From Paramacrobiotus metropolitanus (Eukaryota; Tardigrada; Eutardigrada; Parachela; Macrobiotidae): a DNA stretch of 64,000 nucleotides. The position numbers were made by a program, and so were the translations under genes. The stretch lies in NCBI RefSeq assembly GCF_019649055.1, contig NW_026570258.1:992001-1056000 (forward strand), given 5' to 3'. Below, piece by piece: positions 858 to 25,734 of the stretch (position 1 is its first letter; each line of letters starts with the position of its first letter). The notes below the pieces were generated by a model that did no database searches, was not told the DNA's origin, and was given only the letters and a program-made list of their open reading frames with translations.

Positions 858-1466
858 TGTCGTGTTATGTGGTCGTTAATGGAACTAAGAAGTACGCGAT
901 TAACTAACGACTCTCCGAACGGGATCGTCGTGGCCACTATCCCTGCCTTGCTCAGTGGGTATCGCAACTCTTGTCTCAACTGTTACAGCGGATCGCAGGA
1001 AATACACGGAATCTGGTAGGTTCAGGAACATGAAGATCAGGAGTCCCTAAGCGATTGTGCTGAGATGATACTTCTAACTTCCGGTCGTTACATATGCGGG
1101 TCGGACGAAGCACGAGCATACCGTGTTTACCACGCTATAATCCGATATAAATTACGAACGTCGATAATCACAGAAGATGCTTTACTTCGCTAACACACAA
1201 TCATATGTACAACACAAGGAAAGTTAAAAGCAAGTAGTCGTCAGATCAGAAATCCAAGACTGAAATCCAATCTCTATCGATATTAGTGAAATCTCAGACT
1301 TAAATAGACTTCAGAAGTAAAACATCAGATACACCGCTAAGCCATAGATATAACGAATCACAGAACTGATCAATGCTGATATCCAGTGTTTGTACTTGCA
1401 GGTGAAGGCGGACAGTCAGTGGATGTACGGTGGAATCCCTCGTACGTACTCCTCCTCCACACGTCA
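858..1466 (-). repeat. 3' LTR of the giant retroelement
   Basis: 609 bp, identical in length to the repeat at 25126-25734 and different at two positions. Read on the minus strand it begins TGACG and ends CGACA. It carries an ETS-type site (ACCGGAAGTT on the minus strand, about 1077-1086) and an AT-rich TATA-like stretch near 1143-1153. I see no clear AATAAA on the minus strand, so the polyadenylation signal is unassigned. Confidence 0.95.
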
Positions 1467-1477
1467 CCCCCACAAAC
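1467..1477 (-). promoter_or_regulatory. 3' polypurine tract
   Basis: The minus strand reads GTTTGTGGGGG directly against the first base of the 3' LTR, the expected place and composition of the primer for plus-strand DNA synthesis. The same 11 bases occur twice inside the pol region (19355-19365 and 19502-19512). Confidence 0.8.
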
Positions 1478-2039
1478 GTTTCTTGGCTCCTGCCAATAAA
1501 AACAAGTCCATCCGCAACATCCCGTGCGATTGTGAGCGCTCCATCCCTGATCCATCTCCCATCCTTCGCCACAATCCACGCATGTCCATCCGATGCCCAG
1601 TGACTGTACGCCTGATCCGTATGAGTTGTTAGTATGTGGATCCTAGCGTCGTTGGCATCCGGAAGTCCATGGGATTGGCGAGGAGGAGATCCAGGATCCA
1701 AGGAGCTAAAATCGACTGCGTACTATTGTGCCGTTCACGTGATGGATTTTCACGGCCTTAATAAAGTTTTTAAACTGCACGAATAATATTGCCTCGAGTA
1801 TATGTAGAATGTACCAAACTGCCACTCCGATGGTGTGTGAACCGGAAATTCAACACCGTTTATTTTAATTCTGAATTTCAACTCGAATTAATAATTTCCG
1901 CTTATTAATTGCATCATTCCCCATTAAAACACTAATCGTCCATGTAGGGCAAAAATAGCATAAAATAATAGAAGTGTTAGCTGCTAAACTAAAAATAAAA
2001 TCGCAACAACAGCAACGGTACGAAAGACACGCCGACTAC
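1478..2039. other. non-coding interval between last accessory ORF and 3' PPT
   Basis: A minus-strand open frame runs from here into the LTR (1701-1300), but it opens with TTG and crosses the PPT and LTR edge, so I do not call it. From about 1780 the sequence is AT-rich with no recognised feature. Confidence 0.5.
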
Positions 2040-2648
2040 TCAAACGGTATTGGGCTCCTTGTTCTCTTGGATACACAATTTACGCGGTTTATTATCTGAG
2101 CTGCTAGAACGCACTTCCGACGAGTTTTTCTTCAGCGGTGACAATGGGAACCCATAAAAGCCAAATCCTCCCGTGTGAATCGGTGCCATAGGCACAGAAT
2201 GCGGTTCGGCGATCCGCGAAGCGGCTCCATTCAACTGGTCCGGAGTGTTTCGATACAGCAGCGGGGCAACCTTTTCCCAGCGCTGAATGGTCATACTATC
2301 ACAAATCACGTCCTTTCCGACTGTTCGCTGGTCCAAAGGAACAGTATCGATCATATCCAGTGCCATGTTAATCAGCTGAGCAGCACGAACCATTTGCTGA
2401 TTAGGTGCTTCCTTCATCTCTCGTTCTTCGTCAGGCATAGAAAACAATGACGAAATCGATCCAGTACGGTAGCTACGTGGTGATCCAAATTCAGTGGCGA
2501 TCGAAGAGCCATGGTGCTGCGCATATCCAATCACAACAGGAATCTTACTGGTAGATTCCGCTGGAGCTGAGCGAGATGCCATTTCCTCTTCTCGACCCGA
2601 AGCGTAACGCTGGAAAAACGTGTTGTTGCGTTGAGATTTTTTCGCCAT
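2040..2648 (-). CDS. accessory ORF 8 of the retroelement, unknown function (202 aa)
   Basis: I do not recognise this protein. The first ATG is at 2648; the open frame extends four codons upstream without an ATG. The N-terminus is basic and polar (MAKKSQRNN). Ser-rich stretches flank a central, probably helical region rich in Met, Ala and Leu (about residues 85-130), which looks like the folded core. A late SPLKK segment and the RTGSISSLFS segment resemble phosphorylation sites. It is the last gene before the polypurine tract. No signal peptide or membrane segment is visible. Its length, ATG start and lack of internal stops support a real gene. Confidence 0.65.
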   Translation of the reverse strand: MAKKSQRNNTFFQRYASGREEEMASRSAPAESTSKIPVVIGYAQHHGSSIATEFGSPRSYRTGSISSLFSMPDEEREMKEAPNQQMVRAAQLINMALDMIDTVPLDQRTVGKDVICDSMTIQRWEKVAPLLYRNTPDQLNGAASRIAEPHSVPMAPIHTGGFGFYGFPLSPLKKNSSEVRSSSSDNKPRKLCIQENKEPNTV

Positions 2649-3265
2649 AATGTGCAACACTTCCGAAGATTAGCGTGATGAAAACGTTGAACTAAACGCT
2701 GACTGAACGGCAATTACATGACCACTTCGAATTAGCGTTTGCAACTACACTGGGCAGGGAATCGAATTCTAGAATCACAAGGTTATGATACACTCTTTGT
2801 CTTAACATGACTAATTTCCGTGTATTTGTGCCACGGTTGTACTACCGCGTTATACTTGTTTAAACTTCTTTATTCAACGTGATTTACCGAGTGTTCTGTA
2901 CTTAATCCAATATTTGATCACTAGTTACAGGGAACAAGAACGCGCGCGACCTTTTTAATTTTTTATTATTTTTTTGGATTTTACATTTCATTATTTTAGG
3001 GTCCCTGAGGGCTGCGTACGGTTCATACTCCACTTGGGGACGACGGTCTAACCGGATTTGTCCCATTTCCATTAACAACAAACTCAGAACACGAAAGAGA
3101 AACAGTTCAGTGGCCACAAAAATGACACGGCACGCACCATTAAAATTCGAAACAACAACAAAACATCGGCAGCAAAAATATCAAGGTCATATCACAGAAC
3201 AAACAAGATCAGAACACTTCGATAATTGCCAGTAAAACAACAAAATAAGCCAAAAATTTACCGCG
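2649..3265. other. intergenic space upstream of accessory ORF 8
   Basis: About 0.6 kb without a credible gene. It should contain the promoter of the gene ending at 2040 if that gene is transcribed independently. No motif recognised with confidence. Confidence 0.4.
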
Positions 3266-4048
3266 TTACTTGCTGCTGCTTGGTGCCAAAGAAAACAGTC
3301 CTGTCTGTCCAACACTCGACGAGGCTGAAACGGCATCCAGACGGCGACTAACTTCTTCTGCCATCTTCTTGCGCTTTTCCATTTCTGACTCCCGAAGCTT
3401 CTGCTGGAGTAACTCTTGATCAGCAACGAAGTTGGGCACAAAATCATGCGTGGGTTTCCCGATTCGGTCTCGCGAAGCTGAACGGTCACGACTCGTATTC
3501 ACCGGTACTACAAAAGCATCAACTCCAGGTGGCAATCCCGGAAGTGAGTTCACTGCTGACACTGCTTGCACAGGCTGCTGCGGCGATGCTGCTACATTGG
3601 CTGGCACGCTTCCGGCGATCAGGACAGACGAGCCTGATAGATGCTGATCAGCAAGAGGAGGAGCGGCGACAATCTGGCCCACAACTCCGCGACTCGGATC
3701 TTCAGCTGGTGTAGGCGCCTGCGGAGGGTTCGCGACGTCGACCTCCATAGGGATGCCGGAATTCTCCATTCGTTGAGGCGGATCATCTGGTCCAGCAGCA
3801 TTCGGAGCAGGACCCTGTTCCCCCAAGGGTCTGCCTCCACGGACCCAATCAGATGGCCCACGACGGACGTTGTTGCTTCCGTGACTTCGATGGTGCACAG
3901 GGCGATACGGGCAAAATCCGCCACGCGCACGGCCACCACGGCATCTTCCTCTCCAGCCATACTGTTGCTGTTGTTGCACCGACTGCGAGGACTGAAATAC
4001 GGCGTCAACGAGCTTTTCGAAAGCTCTATTCGGATCTATCGGTGGCAT
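3266..4048 (-). CDS. accessory ORF 7, RGG-box, low-complexity protein (260 aa)
   Basis: Unrecognised family. Residues 1-20 may form a short helix (NRAFEKLVDAVF). A Gln run (25-29) and an Arg/Gly-rich box (about 31-45, WRGRCRGGRARGG) follow; such boxes commonly bind RNA. The middle is Pro/Ala/Val-rich and probably disordered. Residues about 215-245 form a charged helix (QQKLRESEMEKRKKMAEEV), and the C-terminus is Ser-rich. ATG start at 4048. The composition suggests an RNA- or chromatin-associated regulator, but this is inference from composition alone. Confidence 0.65.
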   Translation of the reverse strand: MPPIDPNRAFEKLVDAVFQSSQSVQQQQQYGWRGRCRGGRARGGFCPYRPVHHRSHGSNNVRRGPSDWVRGGRPLGEQGPAPNAAGPDDPPQRMENSGIPMEVDVANPPQAPTPAEDPSRGVVGQIVAAPPLADQHLSGSSVLIAGSVPANVAASPQQPVQAVSAVNSLPGLPPGVDAFVVPVNTSRDRSASRDRIGKPTHDFVPNFVADQELLQQKLRESEMEKRKKMAEEVSRRLDAVSASSSVGQTGLFSLAPSSSK

Positions 4049-4633
4049 AACGAATCATTACGGGAATAAGTGACCTTTCACAGCGACAAAATGAGAGCAA
4101 AAAGTTCCAACACGAATCAACAAGGAACTACTATACAGCCTGTGCGGCGTAACGAAAAAGTGCGAACTTTAAAATTAACGACTGCACTGTAGGATCTATA
4201 CGGCTTTCACCTGTTTAAATACCTGCGCCTGCGGTACGCTTAAAGTGTGCCGGCGTATCGGGAAATTTCCCACTTTCGAATCACATTCAAACCGACCAAT
4301 CACAACCACAGGTTAAAGCTCTTTTATTAGACTCAGAGAGATTACGTCACTGCATCGGCTCCGCTATACGTGATCAAATCATCAGATTAAAGTATTAAAT
4401 TTTACCAGGCGCACCGCCATAACAAAAGACTACACTGAACTATCCGGATAAAATTGGCAAGTGAAGGCACAGATTGCACGGTCAAGTAAAGGTTAACAAA
4501 AGAGCTGACAATTATAAGTAGGATAATGCACGTAAATTCCATAAAATTTCAATCATCCGGTAGAATAAAAATAATAGAAGTGTACTTATGAAAATAACAA
4601 CAATATAGCTCACATGAACTAAACGACCTGGAC
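4049..4633. promoter_or_regulatory. intergenic space, probable promoter of accessory ORF 7
   Basis: About 0.6 kb without coding character. A CCAAT box (ACCAATCACA, near 4296-4305) lies about 250 bp upstream of the ORF that starts at 4048. The assignment is inference from motif and position. Confidence 0.35.
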
Positions 4634-5788
4634 TCACAATGACTTCAGAAAAATCGGCGGCAGAAACGGGTTCAGAGGGAAAATACCACGGTTATCCAGA
4701 ATGGAGCTACGGACTGGTGTCAGCTGACCGAACTGCAACTCAGCTGAGTGTGGCTCTTCTTCCTCCTGTTCGATGATGAGCTGCATCTGCCCTACTGCCG
4801 GAACTGCAGGAACATTGTCCACTTGTTCGCCGTCATCGGTGTGCAGCTGAGACTGTTCCTCTTCCTCTGGCTGTTCATCGTCGCCGTGCTGCTCAACATC
4901 GGCGTCATCGGCAGCGTGCTCATCATTTCCTGAGCCAGCAAAATCCACCAATTCACTCACATCCGCCGCGTCCATTGCGATTTCCGCAGCTGACTTTTTG
5001 GGCAAAATGGGCGGATGCTCCAGATCGACCATCGGCACATCCTCGTTGTCTGAGTACGTGATCAGCGATTCTTCAAAAATGCGCATTTCACGCTCATTTT
5101 CGCTGTCCAAATCAGTCTCGTCCTCCTTTTCAGCGTCTTTCTTTCCCATCAGGCCAGCGATCGTGGGCAAAGGCTGGAACAAACTGACAGCCTTCGGTTG
5201 TTCCACACTACTTCCGGCCTCATCATCCATTTCATCAAATTTACGCTTAATCGAGCCGACCACATCATTAAAGCGAACGCGACGTTCTGCTTTAATACGC
5301 TGAAGGCGCTCCCATTCCGCTTTAGTTTCTTCGCTGGTTTCAGAACTGGCAGACTGGTCTGTGGAGGAAGCGCTATCCGTTTCTGTGTCCAAGGAACCAC
5401 TGCTGTCACTGGGATCCTCGTCATCACCATCTGCTTCTTCATAATCCTCGGCGTCAGCATCGTCGCCGGAGTCTTCGCCATCATGTCCAGCGTTCTCAGC
5501 CGCGGCTTTAACCTCCGCCTGCTGCTGTTTCAGCGCTTCAAATAAAATACAAAAACTGGGATGTAAATAAATAAACTGGCGTCTTAGTTCATAAGCAACA
5601 TCTTTAGGCAGTTTCTGAGTCCATTTACACAAATCGTATCGGTGGATTAACTTGCCATCATAAAATAAAAATTTCGATAACCAAAGGCGATGCTCACCGG
5701 CAACATCGACACTTGGATCAACAGCCTGGGCGACGGCCATATCATCGTCGTCATCAGCCACTGCCAGATCGGGAAACTGCAGCGCCAT
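4634..5788 (-). CDS. accessory ORF 6, highly acidic protein with an RVxF-type motif (384 aa)
   Basis: No family recognised. Residues about 32-90 look like a small folded domain rich in Trp, Tyr, Phe and Leu (HRLWLSKFLFYDGKLIHRYD), followed by a Gln/Ala helix. Residues about 100-160 are almost entirely Asp, Glu and Ser, and a second acidic block lies at about 285-350. Between them is a basic patch with RRVRFND (169-175), which fits the RVxF docking motif of protein phosphatase 1, then KRKFDEMDDE. Acidic tracts of this kind occur in nuclear, histone-binding and transactivating proteins, so nuclear action is plausible but unproven. ATG start at 5788. Confidence 0.7.
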   Translation of the reverse strand: MALQFPDLAVADDDDDMAVAQAVDPSVDVAGEHRLWLSKFLFYDGKLIHRYDLCKWTQKLPKDVAYELRRQFIYLHPSFCILFEALKQQQAEVKAAAENAGHDGEDSGDDADAEDYEEADGDDEDPSDSSGSLDTETDSASSTDQSASSETSEETKAEWERLQRIKAERRVRFNDVVGSIKRKFDEMDDEAGSSVEQPKAVSLFQPLPTIAGLMGKKDAEKEDETDLDSENEREMRIFEESLITYSDNEDVPMVDLEHPPILPKKSAAEIAMDAADVSELVDFAGSGNDEHAADDADVEQHGDDEQPEEEEQSQLHTDDGEQVDNVPAVPAVGQMQLIIEQEEEEPHSAELQFGQLTPVRSSILDNRGIFPLNPFLPPIFLKSL

Positions 5789-6033
5789 TGAGTCGACCTA
5801 CGAAGGTTCCGTCTCCGTGTCTTCTCGTCCGAGGCCTACCGCATTCCATTGTCGCTGTTTACTGCGCTGAATGGGTCTTTCCGGTACACCAGTGCGTCGA
5901 GCAAACCCGGGGCGTGAAACGCGTGCGACACCGTTTCCTGCGACATAGTAAAAATTATTTAAAATTTCCTTCCTTTAAATGACCATCGTGTGCCATGTCG
6001 TATTATAAATTAATAGATGTTTTAGTTCGAATC

Positions 6034-6624
6034 TTAAAATAAAACATGTACACAACGATTCACTATCAACCATAAAACAATTAAAGATAAAAAGAGAAAA
6101 TAAAAGCGTGAAATGCGTCTACCTGCAGCATGTCCGCTGGTACCGCTGTCTCCCTCAGACAAATCCGGAGATCCGACCAGTCGAATCCGAGGATTACTGC
6201 TGCCAGGAGGCGTGCTGATATTGCTGGAGGACGAGGAAGGCTGTCCTCGCCAGCGCGTCTGCTCCGGTGTGCTCGCAAATGCACCACGGCGCCGATTTCC
6301 ACGAACAACATCGGCACGATCAAGTCGCTGTACCTGGGCTGGCTGTTCTTCACTGGCTGTACTGTCCGATGCGCTGGATTCCTGCGCAAAATCCGCTGCC
6401 TGAGCCTGAGCTCTCGTGACTCTGTGCTCCGCACGATCTGCCGCAGATCCAGGCTGGTATCTGACTGGATGCAGAATGGCATTTGGTCGTTCCAGGATAC
6501 CACGTTCGCGCATCTGTCGTGTAGGCGGTGTGGGTCGCCAAGGTACTACAACCTCTGGCTCCGCAATTTCCGGTGAAAATCGCTGCGACATGGTTCCCAA
6601 CAAGCTTTTATGCAGAGAACCCAT
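6034..6624 (-). CDS. accessory ORF 5, probable tail-anchored membrane protein (196 aa)
   Basis: Unrecognised. Most of the protein is polar, Arg/Ser/Pro-rich and probably disordered. The C-terminus has one hydrophobic segment at about residues 173-188 (FYFLFLSLIVLWLIV), preceded by basic residues and followed by only about eight residues. That is the layout of a tail-anchored protein with its bulk in the cytosol. No N-terminal signal peptide is present, so it is not a typical envelope glycoprotein. ATG at 6624; a second in-frame ATG at residue 12 is an alternative start. Confidence 0.65.
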   Translation of the reverse strand: MGSLHKSLLGTMSQRFSPEIAEPEVVVPWRPTPPTRQMRERGILERPNAILHPVRYQPGSAADRAEHRVTRAQAQAADFAQESSASDSTASEEQPAQVQRLDRADVVRGNRRRGAFASTPEQTRWRGQPSSSSSNISTPPGSSNPRIRLVGSPDLSEGDSGTSGHAAGRRISRFYFLFLSLIVLWLIVNRCVHVLF

Positions 6625-7229
6625 AAAATGACAAGAACAAAACGAAGATGAGGTTCTCCACGATCAAATGGCAAAAGTGTGAAAAGAACTTCAAAAACTC
6701 AGAAGTTTTAATTTTAAATGCGGCATGTTACGCACTGTGCAATGCGATTGGATACGGCAGTGCCATAACATGGCGGTTTGCCTGTCGACAGGCAGTCGAC
6801 TTCCGGTGGATAAGTATTACAGAAATTCACTCATGTCTCAAGAACCATTGTTCTTCACGGTAGTTTTTATGGATGAAAGTGTTTTTTAGGGTCTAATTAA
6901 TAATATTTTTACAAAAGGAAGACCGGAGACACCGATTCCGGATTTTCCAAAACAAAATTGCGCGGGGGTTCTCCGTGGGCACACAGTAGCTGGGATACAT
7001 TCGGTATCTCACACAAGCTACTGCCCGTGTGCGGTTGACTCCCGGTGTTTACTACGTGTTAAAACTTAGACTTTTACGAATTTTCCGACTTATCGTAAAA
7101 TTTTATCCCTCTTTCCCGTTCTGATCTTATTGTGTAGAAATTTTCTGCTTTTCTCCTTTCTCTGCATTAAGTAGGTATTTGTTACTGTCATCGTCTTCGT
7201 TAATTTGATGTTTATACTCTGCAGGCGCC
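6625..7229. promoter_or_regulatory. divergent intergenic region between accessory ORF 5 (-) and the antisense ORF (+)
   Basis: About 0.6 kb between two genes pointing away from each other. It contains an inverted CCAAT (GATTGG, near 6747), a CATGGCGG motif (about 6772), an ETS-type ACCGGAAGTC site on the minus strand (about 6799-6808), and an imperfect inverted repeat around 6976-7040 in which AGTAGCT pairs with AGCTACT. A bidirectional promoter is a reasonable inference. Confidence 0.45.
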
Positions 7230-8393
7230 ATGTACTGTCTGAGTGCTCCTCGTCCCGGCGACATGCGCGGAACTCGACGTCTCCGCAAGGATGTTGCTAC
7301 AATGCTCCAGAAACCACTGGAACCCATGGAGACTTTAAAGGCTCGTCGTCAAGAGGCGATGAAGGCTTGTGTACAAGTTCGTCTATTGGATGCTTTCGTT
7401 AAGAACGAACTAGTGGACATTACGGACATGCAGGATTTCCTGGGCACTCTGCATGACGATTTCACTTCCGCCCGTGTAAAGCTGTACTTGGAGGAAAGTA
7501 TTTCTGCCGGGTTCTTACTCAAACAACTACATGTGGATGGACGATTCATCCTAGGAGAAGCCGAACGTCTTCGAAGCCGCCGTCCAGTTCTAATTATCGA
7601 TCAAACGTATAAGCTCCGCGCCGCCATCTGCGGTATACTACTTGAAGCTGGATACGGGGTTACTCGCCAGGAATTACTCGTGTGGTTGCGTAATACCTAC
7701 GCTGTGAAGATCCCGCATTTTCCGGCTGAATTCCGTAAGGTACTGCTGGGACTGCTTCGTTTGGGACGCATACGTACTGGGAATGGAACGCTGTTCATTC
7801 ACCCCTGCGTCGAGGCACGGATGAAGTCTGTGCGAGCTGGAGAACTCTCCACAGAGTTCGGACGCACTCTCAGTAAGCTTCTGTATCATGATATATTGCT
7901 CGGTTCGGTATTGCCGCATTTTCTGCTCTTTGTAGCTATCTGCATGAAGCCGCACGAGGCTGATTGTCCATACTTATGCTATGGTTTCGGCGATCTCACC
8001 GTGAGCGATATGTGTTCCGCTATTGTAACTGCCGGATCTGAAGTGGGAAGCCTGCGTGTTCCTGTGGCTGCTACCGAAACTGTGAATGATTCAGGAGCGT
8101 CAACCAGCTCATCCGATGCAGCAATTCCCATATCTACCAACTTTCGTTATGCTGGGACTGAGAGAGGATTCCTTCCACCTCGTCGCCCTGCTCGTGCTCA
8201 CACTGTGATGCCAACTTCTGCGGATATCATTTGCACGGAGGTTGTTTCTGCCGGCCAGACTTTCAATGCCATCGCTAATTCACTGCGCAAGAATCTGAAG
8301 GAAGCAGACGCTAGTGTTGCCAGTCTAAAGCGTCATGTCAGCGACCATCCTGCCGCAGGAAAACCAAACAAGACTACGAAATCCTCCCGTTAA
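7230..8393 (+). CDS. accessory antisense ORF, possible winged-helix protein (387 aa)
   Basis: This is the only convincing plus-strand gene inside the element. ATG at 7230, 387 codons, no internal stop, uniform codon character. Residues about 20-110 are helical and charged. Residues about 130-200 read like a winged helix: a helix around LRAAICGILLEAG, one around TRQELLVWLRNTY, a recognition-type helix FRKVLLGLLRLGRI, then a short beta stretch RTGNGTLFI. This is pattern recognition, not a database match. A conserved-looking Cys/Tyr-rich part (about 225-260) follows, then a Ser/Pro-rich tail. Its neighbours point away on the left and converge on the right. A DNA-binding regulator is possible. 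Confidence 0.7.
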   Translation: MYCLSAPRPGDMRGTRRLRKDVATMLQKPLEPMETLKARRQEAMKACVQVRLLDAFVKNELVDITDMQDFLGTLHDDFTSARVKLYLEESISAGFLLKQLHVDGRFILGEAERLRSRRPVLIIDQTYKLRAAICGILLEAGYGVTRQELLVWLRNTYAVKIPHFPAEFRKVLLGLLRLGRIRTGNGTLFIHPCVEARMKSVRAGELSTEFGRTLSKLLYHDILLGSVLPHFLLFVAICMKPHEADCPYLCYGFGDLTVSDMCSAIVTAGSEVGSLRVPVAATETVNDSGASTSSSDAAIPISTNFRYAGTERGFLPPRRPARAHTVMPTSADIICTEVVSAGQTFNAIANSLRKNLKEADASVASLKRHVSDHPAAGKPNKTTKSSR

Positions 8394-9784: not shown

Positions 9785-10495
9785 TTAATCAAAACCAAAT
9801 CCCCGCGGATACGCGTATTCACAATACGGGCCTCGGCCACACAGAATCTTGTCATAATGCTCCTTCTGTTGGCGCACGAACCTGCGCATAAACTTGTCGT
9901 AGGACAAATTCTGAATCTGCTCTGGGGTCATGTGGCTTGTATACTTGACATGCCAGTCCGGAAGAGGAAGGTTCTTTGGTTTTGGCTTGGCGGTGGTGTA
10001 ATATTTTCCGCCACGCTGTTCAGACAATCGCAGGCGCAATTGCTCAGCTGCCCACCTCTGACGTTCTGGTTGGAAGGGCTTATCCACGTTAGGTTCCTCG
10101 TCCGGCTTACGGAACTCCTCTTCTTCCTCCAAATGCTGTTGGAGAATCACGACACGGTTCGGAACTGCTCCAAAAATACGGACGGAAAACTCGTTCGGCA
10201 CGGCCACACTTCTGGGTGTCGGTTCACTGGCACTTGCCTGTTGCGTTTCCGGTGGGGCTTGCTCTTCCTGCCCGCCAACTTCTTCATCATCAGAAAACTG
10301 GAGCAGGTCTCCCACATCCGATTCCTGCGCTGGAACTGGAGCCACAGGCTCATACGGTTCCTTCCACACTGGCTCCGCGTAAAGTTCAGGAGCCTCACGA
10401 ATCCTACCCAACTCTGGTTCGCGAAGTGTTTTCTTCATCGCCAGCGGTTTAATCGTCTCCGGCACCTTCTCGTCTCTCACTGACTCACGAGGCAT
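9785..10495 (-). CDS. accessory ORF 4, unknown function (236 aa)
   Basis: Unrecognised. The N-terminal half is Pro/Glu-rich and probably disordered, with a DLLQFSDDEE acidic motif near residue 65. The C-terminal part, from about residue 150 (ERQRWAAEQLRLRLSEQRGGKYY), is helical. Residues about 187-210 (MTPEQIQNLSYDKFMRRFV) form an amphipathic helix, followed by a short segment with two Cys and several Tyr residues (CGRGPYCEYAYPRGFG). ATG at 10495. The ordered C-terminus suggests a conserved functional part. Confidence 0.65.
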   Translation of the reverse strand: MPRESVRDEKVPETIKPLAMKKTLREPELGRIREAPELYAEPVWKEPYEPVAPVPAQESDVGDLLQFSDDEEVGGQEEQAPPETQQASASEPTPRSVAVPNEFSVRIFGAVPNRVVILQQHLEEEEEFRKPDEEPNVDKPFQPERQRWAAEQLRLRLSEQRGGKYYTTAKPKPKNLPLPDWHVKYTSHMTPEQIQNLSYDKFMRRFVRQQKEHYDKILCGRGPYCEYAYPRGFGFD

Positions 10496-15397: not shown

Positions 15398-15618
15398 TTT
15401 TTATATGTTGCCTAAACGCCCAAGTGTGCTGCCAGCGGAGAATCGTGATTCTCCCGCAAGAATTCTAACCTCCGATGTATCGGTACGTACATGCAATAAA
15501 AGATCTTCCTGTTCAATTCGAATTTATAATAAACTACACCCTGCCGTACAGTAAACTTCGGTAGGTGTGTTTTCTCATGCTCTGATTTCTTTTCATCTTT
15601 GTGTTCTAGCAGTAATTT
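15398..15618 (-). pseudogene. N-terminal half of the integrase zinc (H2C2) module, out of frame
   Basis: Continuing the RT/RNase H frame past its TAA (15619-15621) gives a segment with YVPIHRRLEFLRENHDSPLA, then AHLGV, the typical start of a Ty3 integrase zinc module (H-x6-H). It stops at TAG (15412-15414) and the remaining C-x2-C half is in another frame. These breaks separate RT from integrase in this copy. They could be mutations, assembly indels or recoding sites. Confidence 0.75.
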
Positions 15619-17688: not shown

Positions 17689-17697
17689 ATTTTTCTC

Positions 17698-19899
17698 CTA
17701 AAACTTTTGCAGTTTTTCTGGCGGCATATCCGTTCTGACTCGGATAATTCCCTGTGAACGCGGCTGAATAATTACTGGAGACATAGGGAATAATTCCATT
17801 ATGAAAAATTCGATGGGCACCGGTTCCGGTTCCACTCGGTATATGTCATCCTCGGTATTATCAACTATTTTATCAACATCCGGATCAATCTGAGTTTCTG
17901 ACTCCCGTGTTGCCGTGTGAATACCGTCCTTTGTGTACACATATGCCGGAATATCCCCAGAGTCTCGCGCATCTTGTGACTTTATCGCTGGTGCTAAACA
18001 GCTTTGGATTTCCTGTGCCATTACTACCCGCTGATTTTCGTCTAATTGCTGGATACATTGCTGGGTGAGTTCATTTAATTTTTCACGCTCCAACGCTAGT
18101 TGAATTAGCTGTTGTTTTAAACGGCGACTCGCGCCCGATTTTCGTTTCCGTTTATATTCATATTGGTCGATTCCTAATTGTTCCACGTCTTCCTCACTAA
18201 CATTGTCTTCTGATCTGACATTAACCGGTTTGTTCTGTTGAATCTCGTTCCAGATACGGTGTTGTTCGCCTACATCTACATCAGCCGTGGCGGCTTGTGT
18301 CGCCACTAACTCCGAATTTTGCCAATTCGGTGACTGTTCTCTTCTCTGCTGACCATGATATGCCACCGTCGGATCCTGTGGAGCTCCGACGTAAACTGCT
18401 GAGTCAGTTGGTGCCATTTTGGGTGACAACCGAATATTGGACACGTCCAAACCGAACGGTAATTTGCTTAATGCCTGTTCGCGCGTCAGCTTTTGCTTCT
18501 CCGCCATTCTGTCTTCGTAGGAAACGGGGACTGGGCCCATATCTGACAACGGCATATCTTCTGCTGGAACAAATGTACCATTCTCGAAATCCCCTGCAGG
18601 AGCTGGATTTTCCGGTGAAAATTTAACCGTTTTCTTATCAGGAGTCGCTAAGAGTTCCTTTCGGTGCGTCAAATTGTAATGCTGCCTATAATTCAAGGAG
18701 TGACGGCATTCTTCACATTCCTTTTCATACTCCTCTATCTGGATAATGATATCCGGCCAGTAAAACATTTTCACAAGGTACGGGTAGAGTTTTTCTCTCG
18801 GACCATACACCTGTTTGTGTATTAAATTCTCATGGAACTTAGCAATTAACTTTTCGCGCCACTGGAATGGGACGTAGATGCGTGGGCACTGTCCGTCATG
18901 ATCAGGGATTCGACAAATTAATCCTTCGAAAGTAGTCATTCTGTTTAATTCGTACTTAAGATAATTCGTATTCGCATATTCGGGCCTGTTTAGGTAGCGT
19001 AACCACATTCGGCTATCCATACAATTTTGCTGCTCGATTTTCCAGAACTCAACATCTCTGTATTGTTTTTCTGTTGGAAATCTGTCTCTGTCCTGCGGCC
19101 GAGTCGGCGGCATCATCCAACGCATCAACTCTGGATTTCTAGCTAATTTAGAGGGATATTCCCGCTCATGTGTTTCGTCAACATGCTGATGGTTGAAATC
19201 AATCGGTACAACGTTTAGCACTTTAATTCCAAACACAACGCATTCAGCTGTTTTATTTGACTTTTTAGGAAAACCTGCAAACGTGTACTGTTCATCCGGC
19301 AAAATATGAAGCAACGCTGCCAACGTGGTAAGTGATTTAATTGGTTTACCGCCACCCCCACAAACTTGACTAGCATTAATTGCAAAACATCGACTTGGTT
19401 TAATTATAGAATTTTTAACAGGAATTTGTACTGCCGATGGCGGCTTTGCAACTCTGTCGCCTATTTCTGGCTTCTGAACATTATGCTGAAGCATTACGCC
19501 TCCCCCACAAACTTGACGGGGAACTGGGTTTATCGGTGGGTCAGCTATGTCGTGTTGCATCTCACGCTCTTCCGATTTTTCCTTTTTTAGTTTTGTATAG
19601 CCCTTGACCGATTCCTTTACAGCTTCTTCCAGAAATGCCCGGTCTCTCTGATTCGATCCTGGTAGCATCTGACTCGCATCTGGTGACTTCGTGCTTATTT
19701 GGATTGCCGGTTTAAGAGGCCGCGGCCATTCCTCTTTCGCTCGCTGAATATGCATCATGCATATTTCTGCTGGCGCTTTCGTCAAAATCAGGTGAGCAGA
19801 TTCATACGGTACAAATTGTGCTTCCTTCGCAATGTCGATTCTTTCTGTTAGCATCAACGCCGGTATTGACGGTGACGGTTTCACTCCAGGTGGGATCAT
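17698..19899 (-). CDS. pol insert between protease and RT with an extra H2C2-like zinc module (733 aa)
   Basis: Typical Ty3 elements run almost directly from protease to RT; here about 730 codons lie between them. Residues about 270-400 resemble the region before and including an integrase zinc module: FWKIEQQNCMDSRMWLRYL, YLKYELNR, IYVPFQWREKL, then H-x4-H (FHENLIHKQ), MFYWPDI and C-E-E-C. The same order of motifs occurs at the C-terminus of the integrase ORF. The rest is low complexity with a basic KRKRKS segment. Two copies of the polypurine tract are embedded in its coding sequence and encode VCGGG. The frame matches the protease frame (TGA at 19918-19920) and the RT frame (TAG at 17698-17700). 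Confidence 0.8.
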   Translation of the reverse strand: MIPPGVKPSPSIPALMLTERIDIAKEAQFVPYESAHLILTKAPAEICMMHIQRAKEEWPRPLKPAIQISTKSPDASQMLPGSNQRDRAFLEEAVKESVKGYTKLKKEKSEEREMQHDIADPPINPVPRQVCGGGVMLQHNVQKPEIGDRVAKPPSAVQIPVKNSIIKPSRCFAINASQVCGGGGKPIKSLTTLAALLHILPDEQYTFAGFPKKSNKTAECVVFGIKVLNVVPIDFNHQHVDETHEREYPSKLARNPELMRWMMPPTRPQDRDRFPTEKQYRDVEFWKIEQQNCMDSRMWLRYLNRPEYANTNYLKYELNRMTTFEGLICRIPDHDGQCPRIYVPFQWREKLIAKFHENLIHKQVYGPREKLYPYLVKMFYWPDIIIQIEEYEKECEECRHSLNYRQHYNLTHRKELLATPDKKTVKFSPENPAPAGDFENGTFVPAEDMPLSDMGPVPVSYEDRMAEKQKLTREQALSKLPFGLDVSNIRLSPKMAPTDSAVYVGAPQDPTVAYHGQQRREQSPNWQNSELVATQAATADVDVGEQHRIWNEIQQNKPVNVRSEDNVSEEDVEQLGIDQYEYKRKRKSGASRRLKQQLIQLALEREKLNELTQQCIQQLDENQRVVMAQEIQSCLAPAIKSQDARDSGDIPAYVYTKDGIHTATRESETQIDPDVDKIVDNTEDDIYRVEPEPVPIEFFIMELFPMSPVIIQPRSQGIIRVRTDMPPEKLQKF
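19355..19365 (-). promoter_or_regulatory. internal polypurine tract copy 1 (candidate central PPT)
   Basis: The minus strand reads GTTTGTGGGGG, identical to the 3' PPT. The next bases (TGGCG) differ from the start of the LTR (TGACG) at one position, so the likeness extends over 15 of 16 bases. Central PPTs give a second plus-strand start in lentiviruses and some retrotransposons. Confidence 0.5.
19502..19512 (-). promoter_or_regulatory. internal polypurine tract copy 2 (candidate central PPT)
   Basis: The same 11 bases on the minus strand (GTTTGTGGGGG), followed by AGGCG. It lies 147 bp from copy 1 and, with the bases before it, shares AGTTTGTGGGGG. Confidence 0.45.
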
Positions 19900-19917
19900 T
19901 GGATCAAAGTGATGAGC

Positions 19918-20580
19918 TCAGACTATATCAGCCATTGAATGCATTGTCCTTGGAAACCATGTTGGAGAATTCGGGCGTCGACGCGACAATCTCCACGTCA
20001 TGGTGTTCATATCCAGAATAAAAGGTTTTGTCGCTAAGAAATCTAGACCCAATACAATGTGGTCCCGTTCGAATGTCGAACTGACTAAGACTGCATGTTC
20101 GAACGCCATCCCAAATTCGTGGATGGTTATAATTGCGCACATAGGCTCGATTAACTGTCTTCCTTGGTAGGCTGTGTGGACCACTCTACCTTGGATATGA
20201 TCTGGACACTGATGGATGTACAAATCCAAGTCTTTCGCCATTTGATGCGACATCACCGAGATACTGGAGCCAGTATCTATCATTGTCTTAACTTTGTGGT
20301 AATTCACATCAATTACTGAATACCATGCCTGGGCGTCCAGAGTCGGCTTCAGGCACACCGCATCCGTTACCGGATACTGATTCGGATCCACAACTTCCAA
20401 CGTGTTACAACTCACCGGAGTACCATTCACTGCTGAAGTTCCTACTACTTCCAATTCCATAACATTCATTTGGGGATTATTACATCTATTTGAAATTTCT
20501 GGTGTAGGACGATATAGTCGCGGCACTGCCAGAGGATTCGGACACGATGCACAGAGTGCATTCCATGACATCGGTAACAA
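19918..20580 (-). CDS. aspartic protease (retropepsin) (about 220 aa)
   Basis: Cleaves the gag-pol precursor. The active-site motif is MIDTGSSISVMS (Asp-Thr-Gly), near residue 103, followed by the expected hydrophobic strands and HIVLGLDFL, equivalent to the conserved ILG-D segment of retropepsins. The first codon is TTG inside the gag nucleocapsid region, and the frame is offset by one base from the gag frame (a -1 relation). It is therefore probably reached by frameshifting near a degenerate CYRC zinc-knuckle-like motif at the end of gag. I see no canonical slippery heptamer. It ends at TGA 19918-19920, with the next ORF in the same frame. Confidence 0.88.
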   Translation of the reverse strand: MLPMSWNALCASCPNPLAVPRLYRPTPEISNRCNNPQMNVMELEVVGTSAVNGTPVSCNTLEVVDPNQYPVTDAVCLKPTLDAQAWYSVIDVNYHKVKTMIDTGSSISVMSHQMAKDLDLYIHQCPDHIQGRVVHTAYQGRQLIEPMCAIITIHEFGMAFEHAVLVSSTFERDHIVLGLDFLATKPFILDMNTMTWRLSRRRPNSPTWFPRTMHSMADIV

Positions 20581-21488
20581 ATTTCATTCCCTTGGTTATT
20601 TCGCCATGCTTCTTTACAAATGTTCCTCTCATCGAACGGCTGTTCCTGCTGTTCCGGTTGCTGAGAATTCTGACGGTAATTTTGATTATTATTCGGCTGT
20701 TGCTGCCGATAATTATTGTTATACCCTCCGCGCTGGAAATTATTCCTGCGGAAGTTATTTCCATAATTATTGGGCCTGAATTGTCCTTGATTCCTGTCCT
20801 GATTGTTATCATTTACAGGACCATTTGGCCTAAACTGCTGGAAATTCTGTAACGGCGGAAGTGGCTGCTGCACTGGCTGCATCGTGACAACAGGCGCTTG
20901 CATCTGCGGCTGAATCATTGGTGTCGGAGGCGGCGGAAATGTCTGTGCAAACTGTACCGGTTGCGTTTCCTGCGCCTGAGGCTGCTGGTAAACAGGATAC
21001 GGAATGTACTGAACTTGCGGCTGTGATATGTTTGGAACGGAAGTTGCCTGCGCCGGCGGTGGCTGTGACGGCTGACCTTCCGCTTGTACATTCTGGTAAT
21101 TCCCTGAGCCAAAATACGGTCTTGAATATCCGCCTCTATTACTGAAATAATTTCCGCGGCCTCCACGCGACTGGAAATAGCTTCCGCGAGACTGAAATCC
21201 ACCCAGATTGGTACGATTTTCTGCATCATTGATGCTGCCAGCACTTCTTGGCTCTTGTATAGATACGCGTTGTCGTGATTCACCGCCTTTTTTCTCCTCA
21301 TCCAGAATTTTCTGTAATTTCTCGCAATCCTGCACCTGCGTTTCAAACTCTTCGTAAGTTTCCGGCCTGTTGCGGTATAAAGTTGCATACCAGCCCGGTC
21401 TGTGTTTTTTCAGGCCTTCCAACAGAACTTCCACCTGTTCCTCTTCCTCAATTCGTAGCTCCTTGAACCACATCATGAAACTATCCAT
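20466..21488 (-). CDS. gag, C-terminal part: end of capsid and low-complexity nucleocapsid (340 aa)
   Basis: It is in the same frame as the upstream gag ORF, separated by one TAA (21492-21494). The start completes the retrotransposon gag (capsid) domain: FMMWFKELRIEEEEQVEVLL, then a helix ending at ETYEEFETQVQDCEKLQ. The rest is low complexity: Arg/Gly-rich (SRGGRGNYFSNRGGYSR), Gln/Pro-rich, then Asn/Gln-rich (YRQQQPNNNQNYRQ). A CYRC motif near the end is a partial zinc knuckle. This composition suits an RNA-binding nucleocapsid and is also prion-like. ATG at 21488 exists but is probably internal. Confidence 0.85.
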   Translation of the reverse strand: MDSFMMWFKELRIEEEEQVEVLLEGLKKHRPGWYATLYRNRPETYEEFETQVQDCEKLQKILDEEKKGGESRQRVSIQEPRSAGSINDAENRTNLGGFQSRGSYFQSRGGRGNYFSNRGGYSRPYFGSGNYQNVQAEGQPSQPPPAQATSVPNISQPQVQYIPYPVYQQPQAQETQPVQFAQTFPPPPTPMIQPQMQAPVVTMQPVQQPLPPLQNFQQFRPNGPVNDNNQDRNQGQFRPNNYGNNFRRNNFQRGGYNNNYRQQQPNNNQNYRQNSQQPEQQEQPFDERNICKEAWRNNQGNEICYRCHGMHSVHRVRILWQCRDYIVLHQKFQIDVIIPK

Positions 21489-21491
21489 GTA

Positions 21492-23786
21492 TTACCGGAC
21501 TGATTCTTCCTTTAGGCAATGTCTATTATTCATTGCTCGTCTCATTTCCGCCTTCGACGATGCACCATTAAAATGCTTGATTAACGCCTGCTTAAAGAAT
21601 CTGTTCCATGTCCTCGTCGGATTATCTTTATACAATTCGGCAAACCAAATATATGAGGCGCCTTTCAATGCACCGGAAATTGCTTGGCAGGTTTGTCGGT
21701 CATTCCATCCATTCGTCGTACGACACTGGTCTACCGCAATTACCCATTGCTGTATCCTTTCCGGACGTGAATCGTCAAAATTCGGCAATTTCATACTGGA
21801 TTCTGTTTTTTCAGATCCTCTTTTTGCCAATTGTGCTAGGATATCCACAATTTTGCCTTCCGTATCCTGTTGTCTTTGCGTGCGCGGGTCTTGACGGGTC
21901 ACTCGCTGGGATGAGCGGGAAGAGACTGAACCAGTCGCACTCGGCGGCTCACGGTAATCATCTTCCTCACTCTGCTCGTCCGTGTCGGACATTTCTTCCT
22001 CAGTTTCCGTGTGCCGTACACTTTTCTTCCTTCTACGATCTGTTTCGACTGTGTACCGTTGTAACACTTCTTTCCTCTGGGACGGTATTCTTTTCAGCTT
22101 GATGAAACTTTCCCTTTCTCTTTCCCCAAGCAACATATTTGTGGAGGCTGTCCTTGCTTTAGGTGTTTCGACCACTTTCTCTGTTCGGATAGCCGGCTTT
22201 AGTGGCGGCACTGTACCGGGCTCACGTTGAGACAACAACAAATTTGAATCCGACGGTTCAAAAATCTGGTGATCGTAAAGATCCTTCCTAGACGGAGAGT
22301 TAATATCGCCAGCGCTCAACGGCGCCTCCGATTCGAAATGTACTTCTCGAGCTGCATGTTGATTCCGGTAATGTTGCAGTTCATCCTGCATCTCTGCGCA
22401 CGCCGCACCGGTATGCTGTAACTTTTGTTGCAAACCATTAATTATGATTCGACATTGGTCAGTTTCAGCCCGTAATCTATCTACTTCCGTTTGCCTTACG
22501 AAAGCTGCCGCTTGTGCTTCCCTCATTTTCTTTTCTGCATTACTGCATTTTGTACAGTCTTTCGTTAATCTGCGCTCCTTTTGCAGTTTCTCCTTCTCCG
22601 CTTTTTCTGCTGCAATCTCAATTTTGTACTGTTCAATTGTTGCCAACAACGTTTCTTCCCTATCTTTGGTTACCGCCGACGTTGCCGCTCGCGAAGAGGA
22701 CAAGTACATTTCATTCTGTGATTTAACTGTGGCTAACTCTTGTTGTAATTCCGCCACATAGTCCACATTTGGGTTAATGCGCTTTTGTTCTTCCTTTAAT
22801 TGTCTCCTTAGAGATTCATTCTCATTCACGTCCTGTCCGTTTTTCTTTTGTAACTCAGCATAGGCATCCCTTTGTTGCTGTAACTCAGTACGCAACCTTT
22901 GATTCTGTTCAGTCAATTTCTGGTTTTGTTTTTGCAGCGCGGCTTCCGCCTGCTGGTTCGCCTTCGAACTTCTGGATGCCTGGAGGTTTTCATTTTCCCG
23001 ACGAAGTTCTTCCGCTGCATTTTCTAACTCACGGTTACCATCTTTTAGCTGTTGGAACTCTTCCAGTAATTTATCATATTCCCTTTTATCCGTGTCCGAT
23101 TTATCACGATAATTTTGTAAACTATCGGATAATGCACGATTCTTATACAATGCGGTATCCCGCTCTTTATGAGCTGCTTCACATTTCTTGCGCATCTCAT
23201 TAAATTCAGACTGGAATTTTAATTTCTCTTTTCTCTCTTCCTGTAGGAGTTGATCCAGCTTTTGTGATTCGCCGATGGAGTCCAGTTTCAATTTGGACTG
23301 TGCCACGATTCTTCGTATTCCCCGGATAAGGAATGGAATTGAATCGCGCACAACTTCCTGTACTTCCTGTTTTGTTTTGGCTATTGCCAACTTATCATCT
23401 ACATTGGCTGCCTGCTCCATGAACTCCTCATCCGTGAATTCAAAATCTTTATCCGACAGAAAGTTCTCCAGTCCGGCCTGGGACGCATGAAATGTTGTTT
23501 GACCCGTGCGCACAATTTTCATCTTGGGTAAGTGCAGTGTTTCGTCATGCTTATTGGCCGGTGTTTCATAGTTAGACGAGTGGTCGTCCTCTTCTGTGCC
23601 TATCGTGGCATCGTCAAAATCAATAAGGCTCACTTCCGTTGCTGGTTGATTTTCTTCCTGAGGACGAGCTAGCACCTCTTTTGGCGCCGATCTCTCCTTC
23701 AGTTTTGACACCGTATTCACAACCTTCTCCTGTACGGATCTGGTTGACGGTTCTGAGGCTTGAGGCGTTTTTTTTCTCCAACTCAG
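21492..23786 (-). CDS. gag, central part: long coiled coil and N-terminal capsid (about 742 aa from the first possible start)
   Basis: The open frame runs from 23786; its first alternative start is GTG at 23720. Residues about 150-470 are a long Glu/Gln/Lys/Arg heptad-rich coiled coil (LQKQNQKLTEQNQRLRTELQ), followed by a Ser/Arg-rich linker. The retrotransposon gag domain begins near the end (LPNFDDSRPERIQQWV, then SYIWFAELYKDNPTRTW and FFKQALIKHFNG). It stops at TAA 21492-21494 inside that domain. The coiled coil is much longer than in usual Ty3 gags. It overlaps the upstream gag ORF, with the frame change at an eight-base homopolymer (23768-23775). Confidence 0.85.
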   Translation of the reverse strand: MSWRKKTPQASEPSTRSVQEKVVNTVSKLKERSAPKEVLARPQEENQPATEVSLIDFDDATIGTEEDDHSSNYETPANKHDETLHLPKMKIVRTGQTTFHASQAGLENFLSDKDFEFTDEEFMEQAANVDDKLAIAKTKQEVQEVVRDSIPFLIRGIRRIVAQSKLKLDSIGESQKLDQLLQEERKEKLKFQSEFNEMRKKCEAAHKERDTALYKNRALSDSLQNYRDKSDTDKREYDKLLEEFQQLKDGNRELENAAEELRRENENLQASRSSKANQQAEAALQKQNQKLTEQNQRLRTELQQQRDAYAELQKKNGQDVNENESLRRQLKEEQKRINPNVDYVAELQQELATVKSQNEMYLSSSRAATSAVTKDREETLLATIEQYKIEIAAEKAEKEKLQKERRLTKDCTKCSNAEKKMREAQAAAFVRQTEVDRLRAETDQCRIIINGLQQKLQHTGAACAEMQDELQHYRNQHAAREVHFESEAPLSAGDINSPSRKDLYDHQIFEPSDSNLLLSQREPGTVPPLKPAIRTEKVVETPKARTASTNMLLGERERESFIKLKRIPSQRKEVLQRYTVETDRRRKKSVRHTETEEEMSDTDEQSEEDDYREPPSATGSVSSRSSQRVTRQDPRTQRQQDTEGKIVDILAQLAKRGSEKTESSMKLPNFDDSRPERIQQWVIAVDQCRTTNGWNDRQTCQAISGALKGASYIWFAELYKDNPTRTWNRFFKQALIKHFNGASSKAEMRRAMNNRHCLKEESVR

Positions 23787-24189
23787 TCAGTAACTTCCGC
23801 GATTCCAGTTCCTTTTTGAATTCTATAGCTTTTTCCAATGCGCGCTCCGCGGCAGCTTTGAACTGCTCATCAGTCACATATTCCTTTATGTACGGCACAG
23901 GGATACACCTGTCCGTTGACAACCAATTTTTTAGGTAATTGGGCATTTTCCGCTGGTATTGCGGCAGCGTTGGATCCTCCTGATACTGAACCCAAGGTAA
24001 TCCGCAATATGGTACATCCGGTACCTCAATGCCCAATTCTCGATACATCAACTCTAGTGGAATAAGGTCCACATTAAATTTAAATCGTTTCTGGCGCGAT
24101 GCATCGTACGGTCCTTTCTGATACAAGGCAAGAATTTTCGGGTCAATCTTTATGATCGCCCTCGAATTATTCTTCTCTGTATCTGCCAT
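23620..24189 (-). CDS. gag, N-terminal part (189 aa)
   Basis: The first ATG is at 24189 (MADTEKNNSRAIIK); the open frame extends upstream only with TTG. The N-terminal 130 residues look globular with many aromatics (PYCGLPWVQYQEDP, PNYLKNWLSTDRCIP), followed by a charged helix (AAAERALEKAIEFKKELES). It runs into A8 on the minus strand (23775-23768), after which the coding character continues in the other frame. The tail of this frame to 23620 is probably not translated in the full product. Confidence 0.8.
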   Translation of the reverse strand: MADTEKNNSRAIIKIDPKILALYQKGPYDASRQKRFKFNVDLIPLELMYRELGIEVPDVPYCGLPWVQYQEDPTLPQYQRKMPNYLKNWLSTDRCIPVPYIKEYVTDEQFKAAAERALEKAIEFKKELESRKLLTELEKKNASSLRTVNQIRTGEGCEYGVKTEGEIGAKRGASSSSGRKSTSNGSEPY

Positions 24190-24206
24190 TGTGCAGTTTT
24201 CTTCCC

Positions 24207-25026
24207 GACTCAAACCTTTGCGGTTCAAGTCCCGTTTTCCCTATAATTAATTACTTTTAGGCGATTGTGCCCACTGGATTACAACCTTTTGCGGTTTTAA
24301 TCCAAATTCCCTATAATGGCGATTGTGCCTTACTACGAAAATTCCCTATAATTACGATGGCAATTGTGCCTTACAACAGCAGCGATTGTGCTTACTGTTA
24401 ACTCAGGTTCATTATCTCACCTTTGCGGTTTGAGATAATAATCCATTACGGCAATTTGCTGCCTTCCCTATAATTAATTACTGTTGACGATCTTTGCGAT
24501 CTCAACACGAATTTACTTTTATTTCCAATTTCACTTTATTTTCCACGCCGCAGGTCAATCTCCGATTGCCTGGTTTGTTTACAATTTTAGCTGCCTGGTA
24601 TGGCTAGCTATTGATTTGGCCAGCGATTCCGCTGCCTTTGTATTCACCTGCTGAAGATTTAATCTAGGCTTGCCGTAGACAATAGCTTTAGCTCTGATGC
24701 GATCTACAGCTACTATCTAAATGTAGGCCAGGCGCACTGACGCTACACTTTACGTTTTATTTTCTCCGGTCATCGCTTTGCGCAGACAACCCGGAAATTA
24801 CCCACTTTCAATCTTTATTTCCACCACTTTTCTCTGGCTGACCTTTGAGGTTTCAACCAGTTTATACTGCTGAATTTACGGTCCAAATTTATCGATTAAT
24901 TAATGGCGAGGAAGCTCAGCCAATTGGGCGAGGAAGCTCAGCCCGGGGAGGAAGCTCACCCAATTTAAAACCCTAGGCCAGTTCTGGAACACTGACCTCC
25001 TTCGGTGTACCTTTCGGTTCGACACC
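24207..25026 (-). repeat. family of hairpins with a GCAAA-type loop in the leader
   Basis: At least four good stem-loops share the core CCTTTGCGG or a close variant on the plus strand, so the RNA (minus) loop is GCAAA: 24207-24231, 24275-24304, 24411-24439 and 24483-24506. Weaker relatives lie at 24766-24794 and, with variant loops, at 24834-24860 and 25004-25026. The stems differ in sequence but pair (for example ATTATCTCA with TGAGATAAT), which is compensatory evidence for RNA structure. GCAA is a GNRA-class loop sequence. Confidence 0.65.
24908..24958. repeat. three tandem copies of GAGGAAGCTCA
   Basis: GCGAGGAAGCTCAGCC occurs twice and GGAGGAAGCTCACC once, about 20 bp apart, in the retroelement leader. 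Role unknown. Confidence 0.7.
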
Positions 25027-25109
25027 TTTCTTCGGACCACCACAATTCTATCAATTAATTACCATCAGATTCCTTCCTTAATTTCGCTGTAACATCTGGA
25101 AATTAAAAA

Positions 25110-25125
25110 CCATCGGTGGGCGCCA
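25110..25125 (-). promoter_or_regulatory. tRNA primer-binding site
   Basis: The minus strand reads TGGCGCCCACCGATGG directly after the CA end of the 5' LTR. TGG complements the CCA tail of a tRNA. The first nine bases match the primer site of elements that use lysine tRNA (TGGCGCCCA); the rest would need the host tRNA sequence to check. Confidence 0.75.
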
Positions 25126-25734
25126 TGTCGTGTTATGTTGTCGTTAATGGAACTAAGAAGTACGCGATTAACTAACGACTCTCCGAACGGGATCGTCGTG
25201 GCCACTATCCCTGCCTTGCTCAGTGGGTATCGCAACTCTTGTCTCAACTGTTACAGCGGATCGCAGGAAATACACGGAATCTGGTAGGTTCAGGAACATG
25301 AAGATCAGGAGTCCCTAAGCGATTGTGCTGAGATGATACTTCTAACTTCCGGTCGTTACATATGCGGGTCGGACGAAGCACGAGCATACCGTGTTTACCA
25401 CGCTATAATCCGATATAAATTACGAACGTCGATAATCACAGAAGATGCTTTACTTCGCTAACACACAATCATATGCACAACACAAGGAAAGTTAAAAGCA
25501 AGTAGTCGTCAGATCAGAAATCCAAGACTGAAATCCAATCTCTATCGATATTAGTGAAATCTCAGACTTAAATAGACTTCAGAAGTAAAACATCAGATAC
25601 ACCGCTAAGCCATAGATATAACGAATCACAGAACTGATCAATGCTGATATCCAGTGTTTGTACTTGCAGGTGAAGGCGGACAGTCAGTGGATGTACGGTG
25701 GAATCCCTCGTACGTACTCCTCCTCCACACGTCA
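25126..25734 (-). repeat. 5' LTR of the giant retroelement
   Basis: 609 bp, matching 858-1466 at all but two positions. Transcription on the minus strand would start inside it. It carries the same ETS-type ACCGGAAGTT site as the other copy, near 25345-25354. Confidence 0.95.

Follow-up and report, generated by a model that had tools for sequence, protein, structure and literature searches.

This report concerns a long terminal repeat (LTR) retroelement in the genome of the tardigrade Paramacrobiotus metropolitanus, located in a 64,000-nucleotide stretch of contig NW_026570258.1 (positions 992,001 to 1,056,000), the whole of which is called the window. We judge it very probable that the element is a recent, defective copy of a giant retroelement with the Ty3-type order of enzymes, that it belongs to a large clade carrying a block of accessory genes under selection, and that these genes are expressed broadly as in the model proposed below. 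The element measures 24.9 kb (window 858-25734) and lies on the minus strand, with the right-hand LTR as its 5′ LTR. Eight accessory genes, termed H, I, J, K, LM, N, O and P, occupy the region from about 13.1 to 1.5 kb of the window, and only K is encoded on the strand opposite to gag-pol. A first-pass annotation, made from the letters of the sequence alone, had already recognised a real LTR element here; its description needed correction in that the element reads on the minus strand, the copy is not intact, and one of the extra genes is antisense and spliced.

Copies of the element across the genome

The genome searched was the 169.8-Mb assembly of 533 contigs, in which W stands for the window copy, itself on C38, and C2, C9, C65, C72, C80, C94 and so on name the copies by contig. 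When 40 of 80 candidate places matching the LTR were scored, nine LTR pairs (the window included) were found to enclose 22.1-25.9 kb, and five further pairs stood 7-8 kb apart. We examined four other giants of this family, termed family A (C72, C2, C94 and C80). Genes I, J, K, L, M, N, O and P occur in the same order and on the same strand in all four, and H in three of them, being absent from C2. The five insertions carry five different 4-bp target duplications, and their paired LTRs differ by 2 (window), 2, 1, 19 and 0 mismatches. Because four of the five copies have so few LTR mismatches they appear to be recent, and by this measure the window element is recent as well.

The first-pass annotation had named two outcomes that would undo its reading, a chimeric assembly and a family whose other copies lack the accessory open reading frames (ORFs) between their LTRs. 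Neither was found. An assembly artefact, in which the LTRs of two elements happen to surround unrelated sequence, is excluded by five insertions in different places that each have their own 4-bp duplication and the same interior; we found nothing in its favour and regard its probability as negligible. The four other copies keep the accessory block, and the genome search as a whole recovered both the LTR and the accessory genes again between LTR pairs. We also observed an extra LTR with about 40 nt of 5′ interior adjoining the C2 element (L012 836-1433; C2:1108335-1108932).

Selection on the accessory genes

The ratio of nonsynonymous to synonymous divergence (dN/dS) was calculated by the Nei-Gojobori method for 15 window ORFs against up to four copies, with tblastn stretches below 55% identity excluded. 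It was 0.00-0.43 in all 57 ORF-by-copy comparisons, and 0.08-0.40 in the 31 accessory comparisons, covering seven of the eight accessory genes. In a six-frame control scan with 300-nt steps the minima coincided with the annotated frames, and intergenic stretches gave mostly about 0.45-1.2. Over 7401-8000 the plus frame of K had a dN/dS of 0.05-0.15 and zero stops; the mirrored minus frame across K reached 0.15-0.19 but held 8-12 stop-containing codons. Judged by these ratios, the accessory gene set is under purifying selection. N (3266-4048) shows invariant runs of 50 and 59 nt alongside an unusually low synonymous divergence, for which an overlapping signal or recombination between copies are candidate readings.

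A second LTR family and genome-wide co-location

A genome search with K exon 1 gave 113 matches. The ten with at least 62% identity belong to family A, nine of them lying between two scored LTRs and the tenth beside one, and 14 of 37 further tabulated matches have a scored LTR of a second family, family B, eight of these on both sides. Family B was read at the K-like locus C38:450248. We scored 40 of 195 candidate places for its LTR, among which were 11 pairs standing 22.4-23.7 kb apart. The core enzymes of family B remain close to those of the window (RT, the reverse transcriptase, 77%; protease 66%; integrase 59% identity), while the accessory identities are 42% for N, 48% over 98 aa for M, and 34% each for K and H; L was recovered as a profile match of 91%. 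H, K, L, M and N keep the order and strand that they have in the window.

After pieces were merged, 109 K loci remained, 55 with M, N and H nearby and 25 with one or two of these. Near K, the gene M is always on the opposite strand and upstream (63 of 63), and N likewise in 66 of 67 cases; H is on the strand opposite to K in 72 of 72, downstream of it in 62 and upstream in ten. Taken from the other side, 63 of the 73 M loci and 67 of the 83 N loci adjoin a K locus. Accessory genes also fall, by position, within short LTR pairs: C29 encloses N, and the family-B pair C224 encloses N, M and a portion of an H match.

These counts bear on the view that an ordinary Ty3 element was enlarged by captured host DNA, through transduction or nested insertions, with extra ORFs that never took a lasting role. 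LTR elements are known to capture genes, according to the consulted excerpt of one account (PMC6431247), and no known domain was found in the extra ORFs. Against this stand the same genes, order and strands in four other copies, the presence of H, K, L, M and N in family B, the low dN/dS, and the co-location of M and N with K. We consider captured DNA largely refuted and give it very little probability. The annotation's proposal of a lineage with its own gene set gains from the purifying selection, from a second LTR family at 34-48% protein identity, and from the tens of loci. For its further suggestion, that the set had been acquired, we found no outside source of any accessory gene.

Two-strand layout, introns and a model of expression

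On the minus strand lie H (12538-13107, its end missing in the window), I (11569-12513) and J (9785-10495), followed by K on the plus strand, antisense to gag-pol, with coding exon 1 at 7230-7872, a 63-nt intron at 7873-7935 and exon 2 at 7936-8393. A spacer of 605 bp (6625-7229) separates the divergent starts of K and LM. The latter gene, again on the minus strand, consists of exon 1 (L, 6123-6624), an intron of 185 nt in the window (5938-6122) and an acidic exon 2 (M, 4634-5937), which contains a stop in the window. Further along the same strand are N, rich in Gln and in Arg-Gly, and O (2040-2648). P, with an Arg-rich start, is present in the four other copies.

The K intron, GT...AG, is at the identical position in six of six copies. 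The LM donor, CAG/GTAG, is found in W, C80, C2 and C9 and is lost in C94 (the C72 sequence does not cover the site), and an acceptor precedes the M part in all five close copies. Since an antisense gene with an intron of its own could not be produced from the gag-pol RNA, K would need a separate transcript, and the conservation of this antisense-strand intron is the strongest sequence sign of such transcription. The 605-bp spacer between K and LM, with blocks that appear conserved in five copies, is a putative two-way promoter. Motifs resembling ETS sites (CGGAAGT) were considered as promoter evidence and rejected, there being 22 in the element, many within genes. In C9, gene I has an apparent intron (GTAAGG...TACTAAC...TGTAG; L023 2090-2320) that is read through in the other copies.

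In the model that we propose, a genome-length RNA started from the 5′ LTR would act both as the mRNA for gag-pol and as a tRNA-primed template, and the integrase would make the 4-bp duplications on insertion. Additional transcripts would supply the accessory proteins, those for K and LM probably being driven in opposite directions from the 605-bp spacer.

Termini, gag-pol and classification

The annotation had reported 609-bp LTRs with two differences, a 4-bp duplication, and a primer-binding site (PBS) and polypurine tract (PPT) exactly at the LTR edges, all of which we confirm. The 5′ LTR (25126-25734) and 3′ LTR (858-1466), both on the minus strand, have TG...CA termini, and the duplicated CGTG stands at 854-857 on the 3′ side and at 25735-25738 on the 5′ side of the element. 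The 16-nt PBS (25110-25125, minus) adjoins the inner edge of the 5′ LTR and has the same position in five giant copies (with one base changed in C94) and in the short element C65. The PPT, GTGGGGG (1467-1473, minus), is directly inside the 3′ LTR. A 49-nt block in the 5′ leader (24895-24943, minus), identical in five copies and containing a 17-bp direct repeat, is a possible packaging signal. At the other end, a conserved 3′ untranslated stretch (1500-1669, minus) is about 77% alike in family B. No RNA families or tRNAs were found in the window.

The full Ty3-type order of pol given by the annotation was recovered by Pfam, which finds protease, RT, RNase H and integrase in sequence. All parts of gag-pol are on the minus strand. 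The gag region (ORFs A, B and C; 20466-24240) has a long coiled-coil-like part and a Gly/Asn-rich nucleocapsid part and is broken by a stop and frame changes; it gave no Pfam match to gag or to a zinc knuckle, and a C..C..H..C-like stretch is visible by eye. The aspartic protease (ORF D, 19918-20583) matches Pfam gag-asp_proteas at an expectation value (E) of 7e-8. Between protease and RT comes ORF E (17698-19917) of about 740 aa, with an H2C2 zinc-binding domain whose Pfam match is just under the curated cut-off. A profile comparison identifies 124 residues of ORF E as paralogous to the extension that follows the integrase core (100% probability, E 3.5e-41). RT and RNase H are encoded by ORF F (15619-17697), and the integrase by ORF G with the stretch preceding it (13415-15618), comprising H2C2, the rve core and a C-terminal extension with a further H2C2-like domain. 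A search for paralogy among the accessory genes was negative, as among 120 family pairs only the pair of ORF E and the integrase extension exceeded 40% probability; H against M reached 6.5%.

Two TG...CA LTRs, PBS, PPT and a 4-bp duplication within the expected 4-6 bp are the structural hallmarks of Metaviridae, and by this structure and the enzyme order the element fits Ty3/Gypsy (Metaviridae). A protein search with the RT returned 2,208 proteins at E ≤0.001, with a best identity of about 42%. In a quick RT tree of 113 rows without named clade references, the branch bearing the window RT is long and attaches to a second long one. A scan of IMG/VR with the RT, the only part scanned, found no relative.

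Lesions and possibly non-autonomous relatives

In other copies gag, protease, the H2C2 domain, RT-RNase H and integrase fall within one very long frame. C2 has a single open frame of 2,779 codons running from gag into RT, and in C72 two frames, of 2,357 and 450 codons in neighbouring pieces, span the last part of gag up to and including integrase. In the window copy the gag-pol frame is interrupted by five or more in-frame stops and by several frame changes, none of them present in the three or four copies compared there. We considered whether the stops were conserved read-through signals, a notion that was rejected as the compared copies have sense codons at these places. Near 12598 the window copy has also lost the last part of gene H, about 560 nt, and it lacks gene P. 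As near-identical LTRs surround so many lesions, this copy was probably defective before its last transposition and moved using the proteins of other copies.

Such a history fits a community of helpers and satellites, in which the accessory genes act in trans and elements that have gag, H2C2 or accessory genes but lack RT or integrase live on autonomous ones. In its favour are the window copy, defective between near-identical LTRs, and two relatives. The first, C65 (C65:621600-629600, 8.0 kb), shares the PBS; its LTRs differ at 13 of 584 positions, its gag-like parts are 28-45% identical, and an H2C2 stretch reaches 53% over 75 aa. Neither an RT or integrase core nor any accessory gene was matched in its 8.0 kb, and C65 may be a non-autonomous partner with a gag of its own. 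The second, a third-group locus at C86 (C86:217400-247100), keeps K, H2C2 parts within a 1,462-codon frame and a pre-RT stretch matched twice. Where M would lie it has a gene with likeness to both H (95%) and M (74%), which accounts for its match to H; a search of 29.7 kb found neither an RT nor an integrase core. On the other side, the view draws on one short and one third-group locus, the LTRs of the third group were not found, and an RT could lie beyond the 29.7 kb. We place it just short of an even chance, and it is compatible with our explanation of the window element as a recent, defective member of a large clade. About ten K/H pairs with the third-group layout, an H-like gene head-to-head with K, occur in the genome. 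A candidate N-like gene of the third group could not be confirmed (profile probability 0.3%; tblastn E 1e-4 with the family-B N).

Function and the question of an envelope

None of the accessory ORFs has a Pfam match above cut-off. For K, no homologue at E ≤0.001 was found among the best 7,997 candidates scored, drawn from 5.8 billion proteins, and profile searches of the PDB gave a best E of 0.76 for K, no match for I and a best E of 0.97 for H. An AlphaFold2 model of K from its single sequence was unusable (mean predicted local distance difference test score, pLDDT, 37). The annotation had seen no envelope gene, and neither did we, in that Pfam and the hydropathy of 15 correctly framed coding stretches revealed no recognised envelope gene with signal peptide and membrane anchor. 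L as a tail-anchored membrane protein, and a membrane segment in K, were both rejected, as the two hydrophobic stretches are intron. The accessory proteins are most likely nucleic-acid-binding or regulatory helpers and not entry proteins. The richness of N in Gln and Arg-Gly and the Arg-rich start of P would fit RNA binding; N is most likely an RNA-binding protein for export or packaging, and K a regulator.

The element could instead be an endogenous virus proper, that is, a complex enveloped retrovirus-like agent whose entry gene is among the unrecognised ORFs. The number of genes, the antisense and spliced genes and the divergent promoter-like spacer do resemble complex viruses, and entry proteins can escape recognition by sequence. 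In addition, the consulted part of one report describes Drosophila MDG1-group elements that pass between cells without Env by means of a short membrane protein (PMC11952523). That said, no signal peptide with membrane helix was found in the accessory ORFs, the hydrophobic stretches of K and L are intronic, and there is no PDB or Pfam link, so we regard an endogenous virus of this kind as unlikely.

Several observations weigh against our account of a giant element with a selected and separately expressed accessory block. Promoters, splicing and accessory functions are inferred from sequence. N is the weakest case for selection, with a dN/dS of 0.24-0.40 and a dS no higher than 0.20-0.24 against each of the four copies. 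Family B showed no recognisable I, J, O or P, and at 29 of the 109 K loci none of M, N and H is nearby, some of these loci being fragments. Every one of the five family-A copies examined carries some lesion: besides the window copy, most of integrase and H are missing from C2 and the beginning of gag from C72, and C94 and C80 contain stops. Finally, two stretches exceed a hydropathy of 1.6, M of C9 (1.77) and N of C2 (1.63), both borderline, so that a membrane role is conceivable.

Comparison with known elements

Retroelements above 20 kb are rare, and their extra genes are usually single or poorly conserved. Foamy viruses express accessory genes from an internal promoter, as is predicted for the element, and the HBZ gene of human T-cell leukaemia virus type 1 (HTLV-1) is spliced and antisense like K, although it starts in the 3′ LTR whereas K lies inside the element; both viruses have env. 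The following comparisons draw on excerpts of the cited sources. Burro (GYPSM1) comprises giant Gypsy-like LTR elements of planarians, with LTRs that bring the total above 30 kb, and with BIR, ankyrin, BCL2-like, MATH and env-like parts (PMC6431247). Like the window element, Burro is found in animals, exceeds 20 kb, joins gag and pol in a single very large polyprotein and has further ORFs (PMC6431247). In contrast to Burro, sequence-level Pfam gave no match here for BIR, ankyrin, BCL2-like, MATH or env-like parts, the LTRs are 0.6 kb, and the genes after integrase stand alone, one of them antisense and spliced. Ogre of plants is likewise a giant Ty3/Gypsy element with an extra ORF, but its size is largely due to LTRs of 1.9-6.5 kb and it has one or two extra ORFs (PMC6431247), against 609 bp and eight genes here.

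In Grande, RIRE2 and Retand of plants, too, an antisense ORF is conserved in the region from pol to the 3′ LTR; the authors propose a regulatory, DNA-binding role for it, and RT-less relatives exist (PMC7264820, PMC11963269). The distance from pol to the 3′ LTR is 2.9-6.6 kb in Retand (PMC7264820, PMC11963269) and about 12 kb here, and unlike the antisense ORF in the excerpts on Grande and Retand, the antisense gene here has an intron and is accompanied by several sense genes. Cer1 of Caenorhabditis elegans is a Ty3-type animal element in which a spliced mRNA encodes the orphan accessory protein CERV, required for export of the genomic RNA (PMC10309623). By analogy CERV could serve as a functional model for N or LM, but it is a single accessory protein sharing exons with gag, and the excerpt describes no multi-gene block or antisense gene (PMC10309623). 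Troyka differs in its CG...CG termini and 3-bp duplication, compared with TG...CA and 4 bp here (PMC12440569). As predicted from sequence, the element combines several genes that stand alone with an antisense gene that is spliced and a gene pair in head-to-head orientation, retained across families, and this combination appears to have no counterpart in the literature compared. In that literature, mostly open-access, we recognised no description of this family, though an earlier one may exist.

Other features of the window

Outside the element, a tandem array of related ORFs (43828-51356, minus) has a signal-peptide-like start and, by eye, a Ly6/three-finger-like Cys pattern; the one ORF tested had no Pfam match and no protein relative was found. 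Pfam Crisp and ApeC (apextrin C-terminal) domains occur at 53851-54306 and 62548-63033, both minus, as would suit an animal host. Related inverted repeats, present as palindromic copies at 26963-27501, 30830-31191 and 54346-54908, are probably a family of short DNA transposons, and self-comparison marks a tandem repeat tract at 52285-52681.

Implications

Going further, we put forward a broader proposal to which we give somewhat less than even confidence. The element may represent an undescribed lineage of reverse-transcribing, envelope-less, virus-like agents with a genome of about 24 kb organised like that of a small DNA virus. Such a genome would join a giant gag-pol polyprotein to modular orphan genes on two strands (K and LM as a head-to-head unit under a promoter of its own, together with H, N and the variable I, J, O and P), shared by autonomous families and RT-less satellites and recently mobile. 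The family is of interest because at least five orphan genes (H, K, L, M and N) recur with a constant arrangement over the two strands, at tens of loci and across no fewer than two LTR families, and because introns occur on both strands. It opens to test how a reverse-transcribed genome of 24 kb would express many genes, what role such genes may have beside no recognisable envelope, and why RT-less relatives would retain them.

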